A DNA stretch of 64,000 bases from Phaeocystidibacter luteus (GTDB lineage: Bacteria > Bacteroidota > Bacteroidia > Flavobacteriales > Schleiferiaceae), in contig NZ_WBVO01000001.1 in the NCBI RefSeq assembly GCF_008933115.1, positions 372,001 through 436,000 on the forward strand, given 5' to 3'. Below the pieces are notes generated by a model. The model had not been told where the DNA came from and ran no database searches. It was given only the letters and a program-made list of their open reading frames with translations. A program made the translations under genes and the position numbers. Positions 5,298-22,683 of this stretch are shown one piece after another. Each line of letters starts with the position of its first letter. Position 1 is the stretch's first letter.

Positions 5298-6596
5298 TTA
5301 ATTCAACCCTGATTTGTAGCGGTCTAGCGCGCGTTCACGAGCTTCCTTATGAACGACGATAGGTTCGGGATACGAACTGGTTCCATACTCGGGAACCCAG
5401 CGTTTCACGTACTTCAAATCCTTATCGTATTTCTCCAACTGAGATTCGGGATTGAATATTCTGAAGTAAGGTGCGGCGTCGCAACCACTGCCTGAGGCCC
5501 ATTGCCACCCTCCTACGTTTGAAGCTAATTCAAAGTCGAGCAGCTTGCGGGCAAAATACCTTTCTCCCAAGCGCCAATCGAGCAACAGATGCTTCGTGAG
5601 GAAACTTGCCACAACCATTCTCACGCGGTTGTGCATGAATCCGGTTTCGTTCAATTCGCGCATCCCGGCATCTACTAGCGGGTAGCCCGTTTTACCCTCA
5701 CACCAAGCATCGTAATGCTCTTCATTGTGCTCCCATTCTATGTTGTCATACTTGGACTTGATTGCCGTATCCGGACTATCGGGATGATGAAAGAGAATCA
5801 TTTGATAGAAATCGCGCCAAATAAGCTCGTTTAGGTACTTCTCGTTGTGTTCTTGAGCGAATTTGGCAAGCGCACGAATGGAAATGGTACCGAATCGTAA
5901 GTGCACGCTCAGTCTAGAGGTTCCTTGAATCGATGGGATGTCTCTCGTTTCGTCGTATCCATCAATGATCTTCTCGGGAAACTGCCTAGCCGGAATCTCT
6001 ATTGTAGACGGAACGAAGTCCATATCACTCAATTCCAATAGCTTAAATGGCTTTGTTTGATGCAGATTTTCAGCTAAATCTAACGTGTCGTAGGCCCTAA
6101 ACGAATCGCTTTGCAAGGCAGCTTTCCACTTCTTACTGTATGGAGTGTACACCAGATACGGATCGCCGTCGTCCTTTACAACCTCAGACTTCTCAAAGAT
6201 GACATGGTCTTTGGCTCCGATGAAGTCAACATCATTCTTCTTTAAAAACTGATGAATAGACTTGTCTCGTTCTCGGGCGTAGGGTTCATAGTCGCGGTTG
6301 GTGAAAACCGCTTCTACGTCAAACTCCTGGAGAAGCTCTTCATAGACTTTAAGCGGATCGCCGTACTTTACTAGTAAAGAGGCGCCGAGCTGCTCGTACT
6401 CTGACTTTAGCCGTTGAATTTCTCTGTAAATGAATGATACACGAGCATCATCCTTATCCTCGAGCTTGTCGAGAATGGACGAATCGAAGATAAAGACAGG
6501 CTGAACGGGAGTATCGGCGCTTAACGCCTTAAAAAGTCCGGCATTGTCATGGATACGGAGATCTCGTCGATGCCAAAAAAGAGCTACAGAACTCAT
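5298..6596 (-). CDS. phr: Deoxyribodipyrimidine photolyase (cryptochrome/photolyase family)
   Basis: A 432-residue flavoprotein that uses blue light to split UV-induced pyrimidine dimers. The N-terminal antenna (DNA_photolyase) domain starts VALFWHRRDLRIHDN. The C-terminal FAD domain has GTSRLSVHLRFG, LIWRDFYQ and GYPLVDAGMREL, then NVGGWQWASGSGCD, which holds tryptophans of the electron-transfer chain and the conserved aspartate next to FAD. It ends near FRIFNP plus a short tail, so the length fits class I bacterial photolyases. It is the last gene of the minus-strand light block that begins with carH. The adjacent folE/queD could supply a pterin antenna, but this is inference. A cryptochrome-like sensory role cannot be excluded by sequence alone. 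Confidence 0.93.
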   Translation of the reverse strand: MSSVALFWHRRDLRIHDNAGLFKALSADTPVQPVFIFDSSILDKLEDKDDARVSFIYREIQRLKSEYEQLGASLLVKYGDPLKVYEELLQEFDVEAVFTNRDYEPYARERDKSIHQFLKKNDVDFIGAKDHVIFEKSEVVKDDGDPYLVYTPYSKKWKAALQSDSFRAYDTLDLAENLHQTKPFKLLELSDMDFVPSTIEIPARQFPEKIIDGYDETRDIPSIQGTSRLSVHLRFGTISIRALAKFAQEHNEKYLNELIWRDFYQMILFHHPDSPDTAIKSKYDNIEWEHNEEHYDAWCEGKTGYPLVDAGMRELNETGFMHNRVRMVVASFLTKHLLLDWRLGERYFARKLLDFELASNVGGWQWASGSGCDAAPYFRIFNPESQLEKYDKDLKYVKRWVPEYGTSSYPEPIVVHKEARERALDRYKSGLN

Positions 6597-6879: not shown

Positions 6880-7596
6880 TTAGCCCTTTACGTACTGTAA
6901 GAACTCCTTGCGTGTAGACTTCTTCTCGAAAGCCCCGCTGTAGTGGGTTGTTACCGTGCTCGAACCACAGTCTTCAACTCCTCTGGTTGAAACACAAAGG
7001 TGTTCGGCATCGATATAGACCGCTACGTCTTCGGTGTGAAGTACTTTCTTGAGTTCTTCTGCAATCTGCTCCGTTAATCGCTCTTGCACTTGTGGGCGCT
7101 TAGAGAAATACTTCACGATGCGGTTGATTTTGCTCAAACCAACAACCTTTCCACTAGAGATGTAGGCCACGTGACACTTCCCTAGAATGGGTACGAAGTG
7201 ATGTTCACAATAGCTCTGGACGGTGATATCGCGTTCAACGAGCATTTCACCGTACTGATATTTATTGTCGAAAAGCTTTGCTTCTGGCTTGTTTGCTGGA
7301 TTCAACCCTTGAAAAACCTCCTGAACGTACATTTTAGCGACTCTGCGCGGTGTACCTGAAAGGCTATCATCGTTGAGGTCCATTCCGAGGATGTGCAGAA
7401 TGTCTCTGAACTTTCCTTCAATTAAATCCACTTTCTCGGCATCTGAGATATCAAATGCATCAGGACGCAAAGGGGTTTCCTTCGAAGTACCTACGTGGTC
7501 GTCGCCTGACTTATCTACGATTTGCAAAATCTCGTCGGCAATAGAGTGATTACTCTTGCGGGCCGCTGAATTCGCAGAAATTTCTTGGTGTTTCAT
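6880..7596 (-). CDS. folE: GTP cyclohydrolase I
   Basis: A 238-residue homolog of FolE, which converts GTP to 7,8-dihydroneopterin triphosphate, the entry to folate, biopterin and queuosine-type pterins. The zinc-binding CEHHFVP motif, GKVVGLSKINRIV, the PQVQERLTEQIA segment and the C-terminal EHLCVSTRGV and SSTVTTHYSG stretches are all present. The N-terminal ~45 residues are a variable, polar extension, as in many FolE proteins. Its start lies within the 3' end of queD (47-bp overlap in another frame), which suggests coupled translation. Its place in a carotenoid/photolyase block suggests light-dependent induction, as reported for folE genes in LitR/CarH regulons of other bacteria (family knowledge from memory). 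Confidence 0.95.
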   Translation of the reverse strand: MKHQEISANSAARKSNHSIADEILQIVDKSGDDHVGTSKETPLRPDAFDISDAEKVDLIEGKFRDILHILGMDLNDDSLSGTPRRVAKMYVQEVFQGLNPANKPEAKLFDNKYQYGEMLVERDITVQSYCEHHFVPILGKCHVAYISSGKVVGLSKINRIVKYFSKRPQVQERLTEQIAEELKKVLHTEDVAVYIDAEHLCVSTRGVEDCGSSTVTTHYSGAFEKKSTRKEFLQYVKG

Positions 7597-7966
7597 ACAA
7601 CTTCACCTTTAAGGATAATTGGTTCGTGATGTGTGGACGCAGCCATTCCCAAATGGTAACGGCAATCCACTCTGCTGTTGGAATTCGCGTTTTGAAAATC
7701 TCGACTTCCTCGTTGAGGTTTTTGTGATCGAGTTTTTTCTCCACGTGTTCCTCAATCAGATCCGCGAGCTCTTTCATGTCCATTACGTAGCCTGTTTCAG
7801 GTTGAATTGGACCGGTCACTGATACGATTAGCTCGTAATTGTGACCGTGATAATGCGGATTGTTACACTTGCCGAAGGCAGCATCGTTTTGCTCCATCGA
7901 CCAGCTAGGGTTGTGCAAGCGGTGCGCGGCATTAAAGTGCGCATGTCTACTTACGGTAACCTTCAT
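7550..7966 (-). CDS. queD: 6-carboxytetrahydropterin synthase / PTPS family
   Basis: A 138-residue 6-pyruvoyltetrahydropterin synthase-like enzyme acting on dihydroneopterin triphosphate, the FolE product. Zinc ligands are visible as HFNAAHRL near residue 10 and HYHGHNYEL near residue 40, with the catalytic cysteine in FGKCNNP just before. The later KLDHKNLNE and TAEWIAVTIWEWL segments are typical. An upstream TTG would give a 153-aa form, but the ATG at 7966 overlaps the idi stop as ATGA and starts the conserved KVTVSRHAHFNAAH segment, so it is preferred. QueD normally feeds queuosine synthesis; other queuosine genes are absent here. Whether the product is used for queuosine, another pterin or a photolyase antenna is open. 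Confidence 0.9.
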   Translation of the reverse strand: MKVTVSRHAHFNAAHRLHNPSWSMEQNDAAFGKCNNPHYHGHNYELIVSVTGPIQPETGYVMDMKELADLIEEHVEKKLDHKNLNEEVEIFKTRIPTAEWIAVTIWEWLRPHITNQLSLKVKLYETPRNFCEFSGPQE

Positions 7967-8478
7967 ACATTTACAGATTGAATGAATCGATCGAAAATGA
8001 TTTTGAACCACTCAGTGTATCGTTGGGGTCTCTTTTCGATGTCATTCTTCAGATCATCAACATTCACCCATTTCCATTGAGCGACTTCGGAAGGGTTCGG
8101 TTTTGGTTCACCTTCAAAATGCCCGACCATCACGTGGTCGTACTCATGTTCTGTTAGGCCTCCGTCTAGCTCGGCCTTGTAGGTAAACTCTAGAACCTTT
8201 TCTAGGTCGGTATCAAATCCCATTTCTTCCATCAAACGACGGTGTCCCGCTTCAATAATGGTTTCGCCATCTCTAGGGTGACTGCAACATGCGTTGGTCC
8301 ACAATCCTCCTGAGTGGTACTTGTGAAGGGCGCGTTGATGAATCATCATCTCGCCCTTAGAATTGAGAATAAATACTGAAAATGCTCGGTGAAGTAGTCC
8401 TTTGCGGTGGGCTTCCATTTTCTCCATCAGTCCGAGCTGTTGATCACGCTCGTCGACCAGGATAACGAGTTCTGCCAT
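7963..8478 (-). CDS. idi: Isopentenyl-diphosphate delta-isomerase, type I
   Basis: A 171-residue Nudix-fold isomerase that interconverts isopentenyl and dimethylallyl diphosphate. It supplies both C5 units for the carotenoid precursor geranylgeranyl diphosphate. The catalytic cysteine lies in TNACCSHPR and the catalytic glutamate in GLTEHEYDHV. The HRAFSVFIL strand and the RRLMEEMGF Nudix-like helix are also seen. The length matches bacterial type I enzymes. It lies 12 bp after crtB and overlaps queD by 4 bp (ATGA), so it is an integral member of the carotenoid operon. Its presence suggests that isoprenoid flux is raised together with pigment synthesis. Confidence 0.95.
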   Translation of the reverse strand: MAELVILVDERDQQLGLMEKMEAHRKGLLHRAFSVFILNSKGEMMIHQRALHKYHSGGLWTNACCSHPRDGETIIEAGHRRLMEEMGFDTDLEKVLEFTYKAELDGGLTEHEYDHVMVGHFEGEPKPNPSEVAQWKWVNVDDLKNDIEKRPQRYTEWFKIIFDRFIQSVNV

Positions 8479-8490
8479 GTATTTGAATTA

Positions 8491-9330
8491 TTAGAGCAAA
8501 TTAAAACTGTGGCGAAGGTAAGAACTCACGAACAGTCGATACTTTCTTCTATTCGGAATTCTGATTCTTTCTTTAAACACCACCGATGCGGACGTTCTTT
8601 TGATTTTACCGAAGAGTGCGTAGTAATACACATAAGCGATATATACTCCAAAACGCGAACCCTTAGGTAATTGTTTAATTCCTTCGAAGCCTGCAGCAAA
8701 ATCCGCCTCTATATCAGCTTCAATTCTGCGTTTAGCTTCCTCGTCAAAGTTGCCCAAATCAACGTCTGGGAAGTAGCTTCTGCCCAACTGATGGAAATCT
8801 GCGCTTAGGTCTCTCAAGAAGTTGATTTTCTGGAATGCTGAGCCCAGCTTCATGGCAGACGACTTCAGGTGCTGGTAACGCTCCTCATTTCCGTCTACAA
8901 AAACCTTAAGGCACATCAACCCTACAACTTCGGCACTACCAAGAATGTATGTGTCGTACATCTCCTTGTCGTACTCGCGGGTAGGATCTAAATCCATCTC
9001 CATGCTGCGCAAGAAGGTCTCTATAAGGTCATGGTCAATGTTGTATTGTCTTACAACCGATTGGAAGCTATTGAGGATGGGATTCAAACTGATTCCATCT
9101 TCTATTGCTTGATAAGTCTGACGTTTAAAATCCTGGAGCAATCTCTCTTTAGGATACTCGTGAAAGGTGTCTACAATTTCATCGGCAAAACGAACGAATC
9201 CATAGATGGCATAGATTGGATCGTGGAGTTCGCTCTTCAACCCAAGGATACCAAGGGTGAATGATGTGCTGTAACGTTGGGTTACAATCCTACTCGTGCG
9301 AAAAGACAGTTGGTCAAACAAGGCTTTCAT
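8491..9330 (-). CDS. crtB: Phytoene synthase
   Basis: A 279-residue squalene/phytoene synthase that joins two geranylgeranyl diphosphates into 15-cis-phytoene, the first committed carotenoid step. The two Asp-rich magnesium-binding motifs are FADEIVDTF near residue 48 and NFLRDLSADFHQLGRSYFP near residue 170. The YSTSFTLG segment near the N-terminus is the usual start of the fold. Length is at the short end of bacterial CrtB proteins but all core elements are present. Its ATG overlaps the crtI stop as ATGA, which indicates coupled translation. It acts at the cytoplasmic face of the inner membrane. Confidence 0.95.
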   Translation of the reverse strand: MKALFDQLSFRTSRIVTQRYSTSFTLGILGLKSELHDPIYAIYGFVRFADEIVDTFHEYPKERLLQDFKRQTYQAIEDGISLNPILNSFQSVVRQYNIDHDLIETFLRSMEMDLDPTREYDKEMYDTYILGSAEVVGLMCLKVFVDGNEERYQHLKSSAMKLGSAFQKINFLRDLSADFHQLGRSYFPDVDLGNFDEEAKRRIEADIEADFAAGFEGIKQLPKGSRFGVYIAYVYYYALFGKIKRTSASVVFKERIRIPNRRKYRLFVSSYLRHSFNLL

Positions 9331-10811
9331 GCTGTACGCTTTAATTGGTCTTTTTCAATCTCTTGGGCAACAACCTGACCTGAAATCAGGCTTGGTGGAA
9401 CACCAGGTCCCGGAGTAGTCAATTGTCCGGTGTAGTAAAGGTTTGGCACCTTAGGACTCTTCATCTTAGGCTTTAAAATAGCCGTTTGACTTAGCGTATT
9501 TGCCAATCCGTATGCATTGCCTTTGAAGGCATGATAGTCGTTCACGAAATCCGAATAGGCATAGTCTCTTCGGAAAACGACGTGGTCTCTGTAATCAATT
9601 CCAGTATGTGACTTCAATCGATCCATCACAATTTGGAAGTATTTTTCCTGAATCTCTTCGGTTTCCTTCATATCTGGAGCTACCGGAATCAGGATAAACA
9701 TGTTTTCGCTTCCTTCCGGAGCTACTGTAGAATCTGTGAGTGAAGGAGCTGAAACGTAGAACAGTGGGTCTTCAGGCCAATGTGGATCTTCATAAATAGC
9801 CTTAGAGTGTACATCAAAATCACTGTCGAAGAACAGATTGTGATGCAAGAGTCCCTCTACCTTTCGGTCTAAGCCCAAATAGTAAAGCAAACTACTTGGA
9901 GCGAGTTTTCTTGAATCCCAATATTTTTCGGAATAAGCACGTGACTCTCTGCGAAGTACGCGCTGCTCCATGTGATGATAATCGCCAGCGGCAACTATGA
10001 CATCCGCTTTGTAATTGGATGAAATGGTCACGACTTCCGAGATACTGTTTCCTTCGTAATGGCAACGCAGCACCTCACTGTTGTACACGAATTTCACACC
10101 TTTCTCTTCGGCCAGACTCACCATTCCTTCTACAATCTTGTGCATGCCGCCCTTTGGGTACCATGTGCCCAGGGCCATGTCGGCATAATTCATCAGACTG
10201 TACAAAGCCGGTGTATTCTTCGGCATCGCGCCGAGGAAGAGAATTGGAAACTCGAGTAATTGAATGAGTTTGGGACTGGAAAAAGACTTGCGGATGTAGG
10301 CCTTCATGGAAGTAAGCAGGTGCATTTGGACGAGGCCTTTTAACACCCGCATGTCTGCAAATTCCATGATGGAGCGACCTGGCTTGTACACCAATTCCTT
10401 AATTCCTACTTCATATTTGTAGGCCGCTTCATCTAAAAACTGTTTTAACTTCGCCCCACTCCCCGGTTCGATTGAATCGAACATCGCGTAAAGTGCTTCA
10501 GGATCTGCGGGTAGATCTTCGGGACCATCTTTAAAGTAGACCCGGTACGAAGGGTCGAGTCTCTCGAGCTCATAATAGTCTGATACTTTCTTGCCGAAGC
10601 GTCCGAAATAGTCTTCGAACACATCGGGCATCCAGTACCAACTTGGTCCCATATCATAAGTAAAGCCGTGTGAACTGAACTTTCTAGCTCGTCCACCGGC
10701 TTGCTCATTTTTTTCTAATACCGTAACGTCGTAGCCTTTATCGGCAAGCGTTGTAGCTGCGGAAAGCCCGGCGAACCCGCTCCCGATTACTATGGCTGAT
10801 GGTTTGTTCAT
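9327..10811 (-). CDS. crtI: Phytoene desaturase (CrtI type)
   Basis: A 494-residue FAD-dependent desaturase that introduces double bonds into phytoene, usually to lycopene. The dinucleotide-binding motif IGSGFAGLSAATTLADKG is at the N-terminus, followed by VLEKNEQAGGRARKF. The C-terminal carotenoid-binding signature (LYYTGQLTTPGPGVPPSLISG) closes the FAD site. It starts 3 bp after the sigma factor stop and overlaps crtB. No cyclase (crtY), hydroxylase (crtZ) or ketolase lies in the window, so the final pigment depends on genes elsewhere. In flavobacteria the end product is commonly zeaxanthin or a related xanthophyll; that is family knowledge, not visible here. Confidence 0.95.
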   Translation of the reverse strand: MNKPSAIVIGSGFAGLSAATTLADKGYDVTVLEKNEQAGGRARKFSSHGFTYDMGPSWYWMPDVFEDYFGRFGKKVSDYYELERLDPSYRVYFKDGPEDLPADPEALYAMFDSIEPGSGAKLKQFLDEAAYKYEVGIKELVYKPGRSIMEFADMRVLKGLVQMHLLTSMKAYIRKSFSSPKLIQLLEFPILFLGAMPKNTPALYSLMNYADMALGTWYPKGGMHKIVEGMVSLAEEKGVKFVYNSEVLRCHYEGNSISEVVTISSNYKADVIVAAGDYHHMEQRVLRRESRAYSEKYWDSRKLAPSSLLYYLGLDRKVEGLLHHNLFFDSDFDVHSKAIYEDPHWPEDPLFYVSAPSLTDSTVAPEGSENMFILIPVAPDMKETEEIQEKYFQIVMDRLKSHTGIDYRDHVVFRRDYAYSDFVNDYHAFKGNAYGLANTLSQTAILKPKMKSPKVPNLYYTGQLTTPGPGVPPSLISGQVVAQEIEKDQLKRTA

Positions 10812-10814
10812 GGT

Positions 10815-11324
10815 TTATTTGATGCGATAGTCCTTAAGCTTGGCCATCATTTTCTTCCTTGCCAAGAAGATACGGCTTTTTACAGTGCCTAGAGGGATGT
10901 CCAAGATTTCAGAGATCTCCTCGTATTTGTAGCCGTTATAGTGCATCATAAATGCCTCGAGATAGTTCTTCTCAATAGACTCTATCTGACGCATCACAAA
11001 TTCGTGATCAACCAAGCTGTCGGTATTCACATCTTTGGTCGATACGGTTGAGTTGATGAAGTAACTGTTGTCCGTTTCATCAACAAAAGTGTTTTGGTTC
11101 TTCTTCTTGCGGTAGTTGTTAATGAAGGTGTTCTTCATAATGGTGTACAACCACCCTTTCAGGTTGGTACCGTTGCGGTACTTGTCCTGATTCTTAATGG
11201 CCTTGTAAAACGTTTCTTGAATAAGATCTTCTGCATCATCCAAGCGCTTGGTTAGCTTGAGGGCTAACTGCTTGAGAAACTGATGATGTTCATTAATAAG
11301 CGACCCGAACTCTGCGTTTGACAT
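10815..11324 (-). CDS. ECF-type RNA polymerase sigma factor
   Basis: A 169-residue sigma-70 family protein. Region 2 is seen in LTKRLDDAEDLIQETFYKA and GWLYTIMKNTFINNYR. Region 4 carries the helix-turn-helix YEEISEILDIPLGTVKSRIFLARKKM. The ATG at 11324 is preferred to the TTG at 11369 because the longer form would run into the operator-like repeats at 11361-11369. It stands between carH and crtI in the same direction, so light-dependent relief of CarH would raise this sigma factor along with the pigment genes. It may amplify the response at other promoters. No anti-sigma factor gene is adjacent, which is unusual for a signal-controlled ECF factor and fits control by transcription instead. Confidence 0.9.
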   Translation of the reverse strand: MSNAEFGSLINEHHQFLKQLALKLTKRLDDAEDLIQETFYKAIKNQDKYRNGTNLKGWLYTIMKNTFINNYRKKKNQNTFVDETDNSYFINSTVSTKDVNTDSLVDHEFVMRQIESIEKNYLEAFMMHYNGYKYEEISEILDIPLGTVKSRIFLARKKMMAKLKDYRIK

Positions 11325-11337
11325 GACGTCTGTAGTT

Positions 11338-11369
11338 TTGTTTAACAAAAGCAAGTCAAAGTTAAACAA
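11338..11369 (-). promoter_or_regulatory. Inverted 9-mer upstream of the sigma/crt operon; candidate CarH operator
   Basis: TTGTTTAAC at 11338-11346 and its exact reverse complement GTTAAACAA at 11361-11369 are separated by 14 bp, in the gap upstream of the sigma factor start. The same word occurs again at 11416-11424 and, in a similar inverted layout, in front of carH. Repeated short inverted words at both promoters of a MerR-family light regulon are what CarH operators would look like. Binding is inferred only. Confidence 0.6.
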
Positions 11370-11415
11370 TTTGTTGGAACATCAATATATTTTGTTGAAT
11401 ATTTTTGCTCAAACA

Positions 11416-11424
11416 GTTAAACAA
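11416..11424 (-). promoter_or_regulatory. Additional GTTAAACAA half-site
   Basis: A third exact copy of the 9-mer lies 46 bp upstream of the inverted pair, just beyond the carH stop codon. CarH-type repressors bind as tetramers to several half-sites, so an extra site at this distance would fit, but this is inference. Confidence 0.45.
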
Positions 11425-11430
11425 TATGTC

Positions 11431-12333
11431 TTAATGCTGATTAGCAGTGAGTTCCGTGCGCATCTCCATTACGTCTTTACAGAGAATGAAGCGCTTATCG
11501 AGACCGTTTCTCTCGAAGAACTGCACTTGGCGACCACCACAGTACCATTCTAACTCCTTAGAACCAATGAGTTCGGTAGCCTTTTCGAAATAATGATGAA
11601 GATCCCCTTCGTATGGGTTGGTCGTGAAAATGCTCACTAGCGCATCTACGTGAACCTTGTCCAATACCTCGGTGATGTAATCGAGCGGCAGAGACTGTCC
11701 TAGGTAGATCACTCTGTGTCCCCTACTCTTTAGAATGTAGTTCAGATATAGTAGTCCGAGCTCATGCAGCTCATCTGCTGGCAAGTAAAGCAGGAAGGTC
11801 TTCCCCTCCTCTTGTGTAGAGCCTTCCATCAATCTATCTATGGCCACATACAGCTTTTGCTTGATGAGATTCGAAGCGAAGTGTTCGTGGGAGATACTAA
11901 TGGTGTTGGTCTGCCAGAGGATTCCAACTTGTTGAATAAAGCCACCGACCACCTTGGTGAAGGTTTCATCGGAGCCAACAGCTGCTATTGAATTCGTAAG
12001 GATGCGGTCGAACAATACCTCGTTGTATTCCAACATCGCAATCTTGAGCCCATTGATCTGGCTTTCGTAATTGCCCTGATACTTCGAGGAATCTAGCACT
12101 AGCGTATGTCGCTCGGCATCAGACAAGGCCGCAACCTTAGAAATCTTCATACCGCTGTGCACCAACACGGCAACGTTCAGGAGTCTCTTCAAATCGGAAT
12201 CCTTGTAATAACGAATATTCGTGCTGGTACGCTCGGGAGTAACCACATCGTAGCGCTGTTCCCATACACGAATCGTGTGGGCCTTGACGCCAGTGAGGTG
12301 TTCTAAATCTTTTATTGAGTACTTACTCTCCAT
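11431..12333 (-). CDS. carH: CarH-type MerR-family regulator with cobalamin-binding photosensor domain
   Basis: A 300-residue transcription factor. Residues 5-70 form a MerR winged-helix DNA-binding domain (YSIKDLEHLTGVKAHTIRVW). Residues ~90-165 form the four-helix bundle that caps B12. Residues ~175-290 form the Rossmann-like cobalamin-binding domain. Two light-sensor signatures are exact: Wx9EH (W140, E150, H151) and ExHxxG (E188, H190, G193), whose histidine is the lower cobalt ligand. In known CarH proteins adenosylcobalamin promotes a DNA-binding tetramer in the dark, and light breaks it. The residue after the tryptophan is Gln rather than the His found in Thermus CarH (from memory). 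It is predicted to repress itself and the downstream sigma/crt genes in darkness. Confidence 0.92.
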   Translation of the reverse strand: MESKYSIKDLEHLTGVKAHTIRVWEQRYDVVTPERTSTNIRYYKDSDLKRLLNVAVLVHSGMKISKVAALSDAERHTLVLDSSKYQGNYESQINGLKIAMLEYNEVLFDRILTNSIAAVGSDETFTKVVGGFIQQVGILWQTNTISISHEHFASNLIKQKLYVAIDRLMEGSTQEEGKTFLLYLPADELHELGLLYLNYILKSRGHRVIYLGQSLPLDYITEVLDKVHVDALVSIFTTNPYEGDLHHYFEKATELIGSKELEWYCGGRQVQFFERNGLDKRFILCKDVMEMRTELTANQH

Positions 12334-12348
12334 GAATGGATACTACAT

Positions 12349-12381
12349 CTGTTTAAAAGATATAACCACAAAGTTAAACAA
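12349..12381 (-). promoter_or_regulatory. Inverted 9-mer upstream of carH; candidate autoregulatory operator
   Basis: GTTAAACAA at 12373-12381 is an exact copy of the word found before the sigma gene. Fifteen bp away, CTGTTTAAA at 12349-12357 matches the inverted partner TTGTTTAAC at seven of nine positions. The arrangement and spacing repeat those at 11338-11369. The site lies 16-48 bp before the carH ATG, so bound protein would block carH transcription. Confidence 0.55.
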
Positions 12382-12435
12382 ATGTGCTAACATCATGTGA
12401 ATATTTTCATATGTCGCTAGAACTAGCCTATTCCC

Positions 12436-12443
12436 TACCTTTG
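12436..12443 (+). promoter_or_regulatory. Candidate -7 promoter element TACCTTTG for prfC
   Basis: TACCTTTG matches the TAnnTTTG consensus exactly and ends 28 bp before the prfC ATG. The identical element precedes the gene at 3855 at nearly the same distance. Confidence 0.5.
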
Positions 12444-12471
12444 CCGGCCGAACATGTAGAGTAGATTATCC

Positions 12472-14429: not shown

Positions 14430-14612
14430 GATGATTGTTCTTAGGGGCTGTTCTTTAACAAGATACGGAAAATCTGAGATAAGGACATCGCGAGCGATGT
14501 AATGCTCCCTTTGGTCGCAAGAATGCTGCGCATTAAGACTTTCTTCGAAAGTAAAACTCCCTTCGGTCGTAAGTGGACTGAACTACTTCTCGCATTGACT
14601 ATTCCAAGGAAC
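14430..14612. repeat. Hairpin-rich intergenic sequence with two copies of a 17-bp word
   Basis: No gene is supported here. CTCCCTTTGGTCGCAAG at 14505-14521 and CTCCCTTCGGTCGTAAG at 14557-14573 differ at two positions, and a third, inverted copy lies at 34634-34651. Between them are small perfect stem-loops, ACATCGC-GA-GCGATGT (14485-14500) and ACTTTC-TTC-GAAAGT (14538-14552). The stretch looks like a dispersed non-coding repeat family that leads into the 48-bp array. Confidence 0.5.
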
Positions 14613-14965
14613 GATGCAATATTATACGAAGCACCTTGCGAAGCCCCACTTCCGAGGAATGAGGAAGTCTTGTGCAAAGCACCTTGCGTAGCCTTACTTC
14701 CAACAAACGAGGAAGTCTTGTGCGAAGCACCTTGCGTAGCCTTACTTCCGAGGAACGAGGAAGTCTTGTGCAAAGCACCTTGCGTAGCCTTACTTCCAAC
14801 AAACGAGGAAGTCTTGTGCGAAGCACCTTGCGTAGCCCTGCTTCCGAGAAACGCGGAAGTCTTGTGCGAAGCACCTTGCGTAGCCTTACTTCCGAGGATC
14901 GAGGAAGTCTTGTGCGAAGCACCTTGCGTAGCCTTACTTCCGAGGATCGAGGAAGTCTCTCCCTC
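14613..14965. repeat. 48-bp tandem repeat array, about seven copies
   Basis: Units begin at 14613 (degenerate), 14661, 14709, 14757, 14805, 14853, 14901 and 14949 (partial), an exact 48-bp period. The units at 14661 and 14757 are identical, those at 14709 and 14805 nearly so, and those at 14853 and 14901 differ by one base. This shows stepwise duplication of a 96-bp dimer and then of a monomer. Each unit contains ACTTCC...GGAAGT arms that could fold. Because 48 is a multiple of three, long frames open on both strands, but the units look non-coding. There are no unique spacers, so it is not a CRISPR array. Confidence 0.9.
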
Positions 14966-14983
14966 CAACCCTCCATACTCCAG

Positions 14984-15018
14984 CATAAAAAAAGGCACAA
15001 GCTTTCGCTCATGCCTTT
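14984..15018 (-). terminator. Rho-independent terminator downstream of fabI
   Basis: Read on the minus strand, AAAGGCA, a 14-base loop region with a small inner stem, TGCCTTT and a run of seven T form a standard intrinsic terminator, about 115 bp after the fabI stop. Confidence 0.8.
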
Positions 15019-15050
15019 CTATATCCAGTGTGCTGTTAGTCTCCCTGTCA

Positions 15051-15125
15051 ACACTTCAGTCCAACAGTCCAACGGTCTATAAGTCCATTGATCTATAAGT
15101 CTGTTAGTCTATTAATCCAAAGGTC
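15051..15125. repeat. Degenerate short direct repeats (AGTCCAAC / GTCTATAAGTC type)
   Basis: Between the fabI stop and its terminator lies a run of short imperfect repeats: AGTCCAAC twice, then GTCTATAAGTC, ATCTATAAGTC and GTCTATTAATC words. It has no coding appearance and resembles slipped-strand expansion. Confidence 0.5.
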
Positions 15126-21678: not shown

Positions 21679-22683
21679 TCATTTTCGCATTCGCTCCCAC
21701 CAACTTTTAATTTGATGGATAACTTCACCCCGAACGTCGGGATAATGTTGAGGTTTAACTGGTTGAGCAATGGCTTTCGCAAGTGCGTTTTCCAACTTAC
21801 TCGAAGAGAGCGACTCAAGCGCTGGAACGCCCATTAAACCTAGCGCTTCTGCGTTGCACCACTGTTCATACTGACCCGCAATTGGAACGACAACCAGTGG
21901 AATTCCGTGGTGTAAACACTCTGAAGGAAGCTCGAATCCGGCGCTGCAAACAACCGCCTTTGAGGAGATTAATTCTTCTGAAAATTTTTTGCCTGAAATA
22001 GGGTTCCAACGAATATTTCCCATTTCCTGCTCAGATTCGATCGATTTATGAAAGATGCTGAACTTGTACGGAAGCGAGGATAGCTTCTCTGAAATCTCAG
22101 CTTTTGAGTAGGCGGGAAGATAGACCACTACCCTATCTCCAGGCATGTAATAGGCATGAAGAATGTCATCGTGGATAATGGGCAACAGGATGTCATTTGC
22201 ATACCGTTGGTAGTGAAAACCGATACTGTCCCTTACCGGGGCGTAGTTGTTTAACACCAGTTTTCCCATCGGCATAACCTTCTTCGTCTTAGGCGACTTT
22301 GGGTTGGCCACAGCAGCCTGGTGACTCAGTCCTAGAACAGGAACTTTTCTCCGCTTAGCTGCTCGAAGAGAAATACTCTCAAAATCATTGATAATGAAAT
22401 CGTATTGCTCCACCGGGATCTCTCTAACTTCCCGGAATACCTTGAAAATATTGTTGCTCACAAGAGTTTTCAGGATATCCACACTTCCGTCGCCTCCATA
22501 TTCCATGGATATTCCCTTGCCTGTCCACACGGGAGCCGACGGTAAATCGACGTCGCTGTTCCCTCCTACCAAGGCGAGGTCTACATCGAATTCTTCAATG
22601 AGTTTAGGATAGAGCGCGCGTGCACGGGAAACATGGCCATTTCCAGTGCCTTGAATCGCATAAAGGACCTTAGTTCGCTGCAA
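21679..22683 (-). CDS. MurG-like (GT-B fold) glycosyltransferase, family unknown
   Basis: A 334-residue GT-B fold protein. The N-terminal glycine-rich loop VLYAIQGTGNGHVSRA resembles MurG and UDP-glucuronosyltransferase-type enzymes. The C-terminal donor site reads VVCSAGFELPSECLHHGIPLVVVP and QYEQWCNAEALG. It is too divergent to be MurG itself. The only start consistent with the conserved N-terminus is a TTG at 22683, 14 bp inside the LpxH-like gene, which suggests coupled translation. Pairing with an LpxH-like hydrolase hints at a glycolipid or surface-glycan role, but the substrate is unknown. Confidence 0.82.
   Translation of the reverse strand: MQRTKVLYAIQGTGNGHVSRARALYPKLIEEFDVDLALVGGNSDVDLPSAPVWTGKGISMEYGGDGSVDILKTLVSNNIFKVFREVREIPVEQYDFIINDFESISLRAAKRRKVPVLGLSHQAAVANPKSPKTKKVMPMGKLVLNNYAPVRDSIGFHYQRYANDILLPIIHDDILHAYYMPGDRVVVYLPAYSKAEISEKLSSLPYKFSIFHKSIESEQEMGNIRWNPISGKKFSEELISSKAVVCSAGFELPSECLHHGIPLVVVPIAGQYEQWCNAEALGLMGVPALESLSSSKLENALAKAIAQPVKPQHYPDVRGEVIHQIKSWWERMRK

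Follow-up and report, generated by a model that had tools for sequence, protein, structure and literature searches.

A conserved spaced inverted repeat as the predicted DNA site of a CarH-type regulator in Phaeocystidibacter luteus and related Bacteroidota

Results

An inverted 9-mer pair as the predicted site of the adjacent CarH

We propose that the inverted pair TTGTTTAAC-N14/15-GTTAAACAA, found upstream of an ECF sigma factor gene and of carH in Phaeocystidibacter luteus, is the DNA site of the adjacent CarH, and that AdoCbl-bound CarH represses from this site in the dark and is released by light, a reading to which we assign a probability of about 0.8. The site, its spacing, its conservation, its association with CarH and the conservation of the B12 ligands were computed; physical binding, dependent on AdoCbl and light, is inferred in the absence of binding data. 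Coordinates below are those of the window, the whole 64,000-nucleotide stretch of DNA that was analysed. The four papers cited for comparison (PMC9304148, PMC11796333, PMC12705666 and PMC3587595) were available in part only, and statements that rest on them extend no further than those parts.

The genes of the block are as follows.

11431..12333, minus strand: carH, 300 aa, with Pfam matches to a MerR-type DNA-binding domain and B12-binding domains
10815..11324, minus strand: ECF sigma factor gene (Pfam Sigma70_r2 and r4_2), ATG at 11322-11324
9327..10811, minus strand: crtI-type desaturase, 3 bases past the sigma gene (Pfam amine oxidoreductase; named from gene order and similarity)
8491..9330, minus strand: crtB phytoene synthase (Pfam SQS_PSY)
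7963..8478, minus strand: NUDIX protein (Pfam NUDIX), probably idi from its context
7550..8011, minus strand: PTPS, 6-pyruvoyl tetrahydropterin synthase type (Pfam)
6880..7596, minus strand: folE, GTP cyclohydrolase I (Pfam)
5298..6596, minus strand: photolyase-type gene (Pfam)

The CarH protein matches MerR_1 (6e-17) and B12-binding_2 (3e-8), as well as a second B12 domain (B12-binding, 8e-4) that remains below its cut-off, and its residues 4-232 match Thermus CarH (5c8d, E 6e-14; 3whp, E 5e-14). W140, E150, H151 and H190 align with W131, E141, H142 and H177, the AdoCbl-binding residues of Thermus CarH (PMC11796333), and are invariant in all 24 aligned CarH sequences.

At window positions 12334-12471, carH and prfC (release factor 3, by Pfam) diverge, and 61 of 71 loci share this layout. 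Elsewhere in the window, at 14441-15098, open reading frames of both strands encode tandemly repeated peptides, so that a tandem DNA repeat is located there.

Three predicted operators were located.

11338..11369, no strand: operator O2 of the sigma-crt operon, an exact inverted pair TTGTTTAAC-N14-GTTAAACAA
11392..11424, no strand: operator O1, upstream of O2, TTGTTGAAT-N15-GTTAAACAA with 2 mismatches
12349..12381, no strand: operator of carH, CTGTTTAAA-N15-GTTAAACAA with 2 mismatches in all

The arms of O2, TTGTTTAAC at 11338-11346 and GTTAAACAA at 11361-11369, are separated by 14 bp and match without mismatch, and those of the carH promoter, CTGTTTAAA at 12349-12357 and GTTAAACAA at 12373-12381, by 15 bp. 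Both pairs are thus present as a preliminary description of this DNA had given them, and the matching distance to the genes that it had claimed was also found, with 13 bases between pair and ATG at sigma versus 15 at carH (ATG 12331-12333). The further copy of the 9-mer that it had listed at 11416-11424 exists but is not a lone one: it is an arm of a third pair whose partner, TTGTTGAAT at 11392-11400 across a gap of 15 bp, had been overlooked, and the sigma promoter therefore carries two pairs, O2 and O1. No pair was seen when the sequence upstream of the photolyase-type gene was read.

Putative promoter elements were assigned as follows.

11357..11364, minus strand: putative −7 box TAACTTTG of the sigma promoter, identified from its sequence and overlapped by the left arm of O2
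11383..11385, minus strand: putative −33 TTG of the sigma promoter, by inspection, 18 bases before the −7 box
12369..12376, minus strand: putative −7 box TAACTTTG of the carH promoter, from its sequence, by inspection

The TTG at 11383..11385 was called the −33 element on the basis of the spacing permitted between −33 and −7 elements; at the carH promoter, inspection revealed no perfect −33 TTG at the right distance from the −7 box. As judged from its letters, part of the conserved sequence is the −7 promoter box TAACTTTG, which the left arm overlaps and which matches the box of the flavobacterial promoter consensus TTG..TANNTTTG (PMC3587595). No promoter box includes the right arm, yet five of its positions are conserved at 1.00 over 15 genera.

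The signal in the genome is the spaced pair

The window contains five copies of the 9-mer versus 0.62 expected, a number reached by none of 100 shuffles. In the whole genome (3.2 Mb), however, 22 copies stand against 35 for the reversed control, so that the 9-mer, whose recurrence had underlain the preliminary prediction, is by itself without enrichment. Of the 16 copies that belong neither to the light block nor to a DUF4397 site, 13 fall within mechanically called ORFs; the site at 22247 is likewise in an ORF. Four of the 22 copies are clustered in 1,044 bp, for which a rough Poisson estimate gives an expectation of ~1e-6. For the motif TGTTTAA-N16/17-TTAAACA, the 3.2-Mb genome has three sites, at the sigma gene, carH and a DUF4397 gene, versus none for the control, and the exact full pair with gap 14 has a single genome occurrence, at the sigma promoter. 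With up to 3 mismatches, full pairs are not commoner genome-wide than controls (5 vs 6 at gap 14, 2 vs 4 at gap 15); the only two matches at gap 15 are the promoters of this locus. The signal is the spaced inverted pair, not the 9-mer alone.

As a genome probe, TGTTTAACTTTG gave three exact matches, two of them in the window promoters, and was dropped because at one mismatch it gave 15 matches vs 36 for the control. Its third exact copy, and the only one not in those promoters, lies at C1:675939-675950 (L029).

The pair is conserved in the family

Family, class and phylum are used here as the groupings of the search tool. Of the 88 family genomes, 74 gave CarH matches, a count that includes short fragments and one weak match (E 3.6e-4); a peptide-pattern search of the named genome collection returned one locus, from a Flavobacteriaceae MAG. 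The region between carH and sigma was usable in 61 of 71 loci, with L042, L060, L062, L063, L064, L077, L099 and L110-L112 excluded on account of another next gene, a contig end or a sigma gene too far away. For rhodopsin, 61 matches led to 57 loci used and 52 counted, five upstream regions being too short or containing N. All orientations of the paired 9-mer, at gaps of 0-44, were compared with dinucleotide shuffles.

With at most 2 mismatches, TTGTTTAAC-N14/15-GTTAAACAA precedes sigma in 59 of 61 family loci (shuffles 0.03), and only at gaps of 14 or 15. With at most 3 mismatches, it is found upstream of carH in 15 of 71 regions (shuffles 0.07) and upstream of rhodopsin in 10 of 52 (shuffles 0.13), leaving 56 carH and 42 rhodopsin promoters of the family without a pair at that threshold. 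The site is therefore near-universal before sigma and restricted to a minority before carH and rhodopsin. A second pair, detected loosely (up to 5 mismatches) 40-75 bp upstream of O2, accompanies 50 of 59 sigma regions, and the consensus of the site is TTGTTTAACTTTG-N10/11-xTTAAACAAAA (60 rows, 15 genera).

Genus-weighted counts for the inverted orientation at gaps 14 and 15 were 8.22 and 5.71 of 20 genera at carH (shuffles 0.13 and 0.14), and 11.86 and 9.80 of 16 genera at sigma (shuffles 0.39 and 0.38). These two gaps rank highest at carH, followed by direct gap 12; at sigma, direct gap 12 and others appear in the list alongside them, an effect explained, at least partly, by the near-palindromic half-site (TTGTTWAACAA) and the presence of two pairs.

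Genomes with the pair are genomes with CarH

Genome-wide searches used the pattern TTGTTTAA-N15..17-TTAAACAA and its reversed form. The 88 family genomes contain 61 pattern sites, distributed over 47 genomes, versus one for the reversed pattern, and 43 of the 61 are in the carH/sigma/crt region by manual count. In the class, 162 of 395 genomes carry the pair (269 sites), and 14 carry the control, 10 of those being CarH-positive. With CarH called at a profile E of at most 1e-20 (253 of 395 genomes), the exact pair is present in 157 of 253 CarH-positive vs 5 of 142 CarH-negative genomes (Fisher 4e-35), and it is absent from 96 of the CarH-positive ones. Two of the five CarH-negative genomes with a pair were examined, and their sites are inside ORFs. 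Within 21 mixed families, the pair occurs in 71 of 125 genomes with CarH vs 5 of 65 without (family-stratified chi2 38). When CrtI, called at an E of at most 1e-60, is considered as well, the pair is present in 146 of 229 genomes with both proteins, 11 of 24 with CarH only, 3 of 37 with CrtI only and 2 of 105 with neither. The sampled genomes are related, so these association tests overstate independence. In other classes, in which CarH was not searched for, the pair was found in 2 of 223 genomes.

A set of class loci was assembled from the 29 best-scoring carH loci and 19 hand-chosen ones, of which 18 came from genomes that lack the exact pair (L296 gave none). The pair (up to 2 mismatches) was found 3′ of carH in 23 of 25 loci in which sigma comes next, in all three with crtI next and sufficient room, and in 0 of 18 others; two of five sigma-less loci in this set had less than 45 bp between the genes. 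Five loci without a sigma gene between carH and crtI keep the site (L110, L111, L252, L258 and L292), although sigma genes elsewhere in these genomes were not searched for. The operator prediction is thus supported comparatively, by conservation at the sigma promoter, gap preference, co-occurrence with CarH and the loci lacking an intervening sigma gene, and lacks binding data.

The geometry differs from that of known CarH operators

In Thermus thermophilus, Bacillus megaterium and myxobacteria, the CarH operators consist of 11-bp direct repeats in tandem, nnnnTnnACAn, with the core TnnACA (PMC9304148). They resemble the site described here in the presence of a MerR-B12 regulator beside crt genes, in the TnnACA half-site, in the overlap with promoter elements and in having several half-sites per promoter. 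The half-site TTAAACA contains the TnnACA core, and the left arm of the pair lies over TAACTTTG. In contrast to those repeats, however, the half-sites described here are inverted and 23-24 bp apart, start to start.

A Thermus-type direct-repeat operator found no support: tandem runs of three TnnACA were absent from 132 regions (71 carH, 61 sigma), runs of two occurred in 2 carH and 3 sigma regions (shuffles 0.6 and 1.3), and there was no peak at ±11 bp from either the right arm, where the score is at background (1.19 and 1.28 vs 1.16), or the left arm (0.80 and 1.72 vs 1.19). A loose three-repeat score is nevertheless raised at sigma, where 49 of 61 regions reach at least 9 of 12 (shuffles 19.9), which counts against a purely inverted reading. 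A weaker signal at 21-22 bp (2.37 and 2.45 at −22 vs ~1.2) is due to the near-palindromic half-site. In Thermus, a single CarH dimer holds two outer repeats that lie 22 bp apart (PMC9304148); by analogy, the inverted sites may make use of this dimer span without a middle repeat, which is an inference.

Two further systems are comparable. Inverted repeats were also noted near the promoter at the CarA site of Pcrt in Myxococcus xanthus, where later data favoured the direct repeats that are unsupported at the Bacteroidota sites (PMC9304148). LitR-LitS of Streptomyces likewise combines a B12 photosensor with an ECF-type sigma gene linked to crt genes, but LitS drives a separate crtE promoter (PMC12705666), whereas here the sigma gene directly precedes crtI, probably in one operon.

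Sites at other genes

The other 18 family sites belong to rhodopsin (4), crtY-blh (1), photolyase/SDR (1), fasciclin-type (7) and DUF4397 (1) genes, a secreted protein beside a CRP-type gene (2), flavin-reductase-like/Hsp20 (1) and a lipoprotein (1). Among 30 class loci examined, 27 sites are located before genes for sigma (12), crtI (2), carH (2), DUF4397-type proteins (8), folE/PTPS (2) and rhodopsin (1); of the remaining three, two are in ORFs and one is elsewhere. Gene names away from carH were assigned by eye, except for ten proteins checked with Pfam, which confirmed rhodopsin, lycopene cyclase, dioxygenase, photolyase, fasciclin, PTPS, GTP cyclohydrolase and three DUF4397 examples.

In the P. 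luteus genome, which gave no rhodopsin match, a pair and a further 9-mer precede a DUF4397 protein with a secretion tail (C25:91725-91783; L161 2726-2784). The DUF4397-type genes with a pair, 8 of the 30 class loci and most of them named by eye, extend to other families of the class. Fasciclin-domain lipoprotein genes with an exact pair occur in several genera of the family (L144, L147, L153, L154, L155, L158 and L159; Pfam for L144 only). To our knowledge, neither DUF4397 nor fasciclin surface proteins are known as light-responsive. The folE and PTPS genes, within the light block of the window (6880-8011), have a pair of their own at one or the other in other families (L220, L225, L246); these pairs hint at light-controlled pterin synthesis, perhaps for photolyase. 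In two genomes (L151, L152), a pair lies between a secreted-protein gene and a gene for a CRP-type regulator.

We consider it probable, though by no means assured, that Bacteroidota possess a class-wide B12 light regulon in which CarH, on inverted half-sites 23-24 bp apart, jointly controls ECF sigma-crt, proteorhodopsin and retinal synthesis, pterin and surface-protein (DUF4397, fasciclin) genes.

Discussion

Combining these findings, we envisage the following mechanism, in which dark repression, release by light, the operon structure and the role of the sigma factor are all inferred. At the sigma and carH promoters, the left arm of the pair would cover the putative −7 box (TAACTTTG) and the right arm the predicted transcript start, with a second pair upstream at the sigma promoter. 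In the dark, AdoCbl-bound CarH would occupy the pairs and block transcription of sigma-crtI-crtB-idi-PTPS-folE and of carH. Light would break AdoCbl, CarH would leave the DNA, and the genes would be expressed. In relatives, the rhodopsin, crtY-blh, folE/PTPS, DUF4397, fasciclin and perhaps photolyase genes may join the regulon via the same site. Autoregulation of carH is likely in this genome; most relatives have no clear site at carH.

Classical MerR proteins are activators. This precedent would be compatible with a CarH that, bound to the pairs, activates, or is switched by light from repression to activation, in place of plain repression in the dark. Activation as described for LitR is the main rival on mechanism: Streptomyces LitR is described as promoting litS transcription in the light (PMC12705666), and the regulatory sign could therefore differ here. 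We hold this to be unlikely, considering that a protein bound to the pairs would block at the −7 box and transcript start, and that CarH of Thermus, Bacillus and Myxococcus represses in the dark (PMC9304148). Given the predicted position of the pair over these elements and this known behavior, dark repression and release by light are favored.

The pairs could also be bound by a different light or stress regulator that co-occurs with CarH, for instance one of the CRP/FNR type, of which LdrP of Thermus is an example. Co-occurrence is no proof of binding, and the two sites of L151 and L152, away from carH, adjoin a CRP-type gene; the conserved block, however, has no such gene, and the half-site has the CarH core TnnACA, which makes this explanation improbable.

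About equally improbable is that the motif is the promoter of the neighboring ECF sigma factor, which would drive itself and the crt genes while CarH acts elsewhere. The best conservation of the site is indeed found before the sigma gene, and LitS directs the crtE promoter in Streptomyces (PMC12705666). Against this stand (i) the structure of the site, an inverted repeat with equal half-sites and a fixed gap, (ii) the overlap of its left arm with a housekeeping-type −7 box, (iii) the five carH-crtI loci that keep it without an intervening sigma gene, with the reservation about sigma genes elsewhere made above, and (iv) the fact that its presence tracks CarH across genomes. Finally, look-alikes arising by chance from a −7 box and AT-rich DNA, suggested by the identity of TAACTTTG with a promoter box, the lack of enrichment of the 9-mer and 3-mismatch pairs no commoner than controls, can be dismissed in view of the conservation of the right arm outside promoter boxes, the gap specificity, the 61 family sites versus one control and the far lower counts for shuffles and reversed patterns.

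We found no CarH or LitR operator reported for Bacteroidota and no CarH control of rhodopsin in a literature search that covered titles and the beginnings of abstracts, with most subscription literature outside its reach, so that an earlier description is not excluded. A text search for the 9-mer gave 1,273 chance matches, none relevant by title among the matches listed. Within the same limits, inverted half-sites 23-24 bp apart are a geometry that we found described for no CarH.

How flavobacteria regulate rhodopsin expression needs further work (PMC3587595). With a site delimited, a photoreceptor named and target genes listed, this regulation becomes testable. If our proposal is true, CarH is able to recognize DNA in an arrangement different from the solved one, and surface functions under the control of light can be suspected for the DUF4397 and fasciclin proteins.
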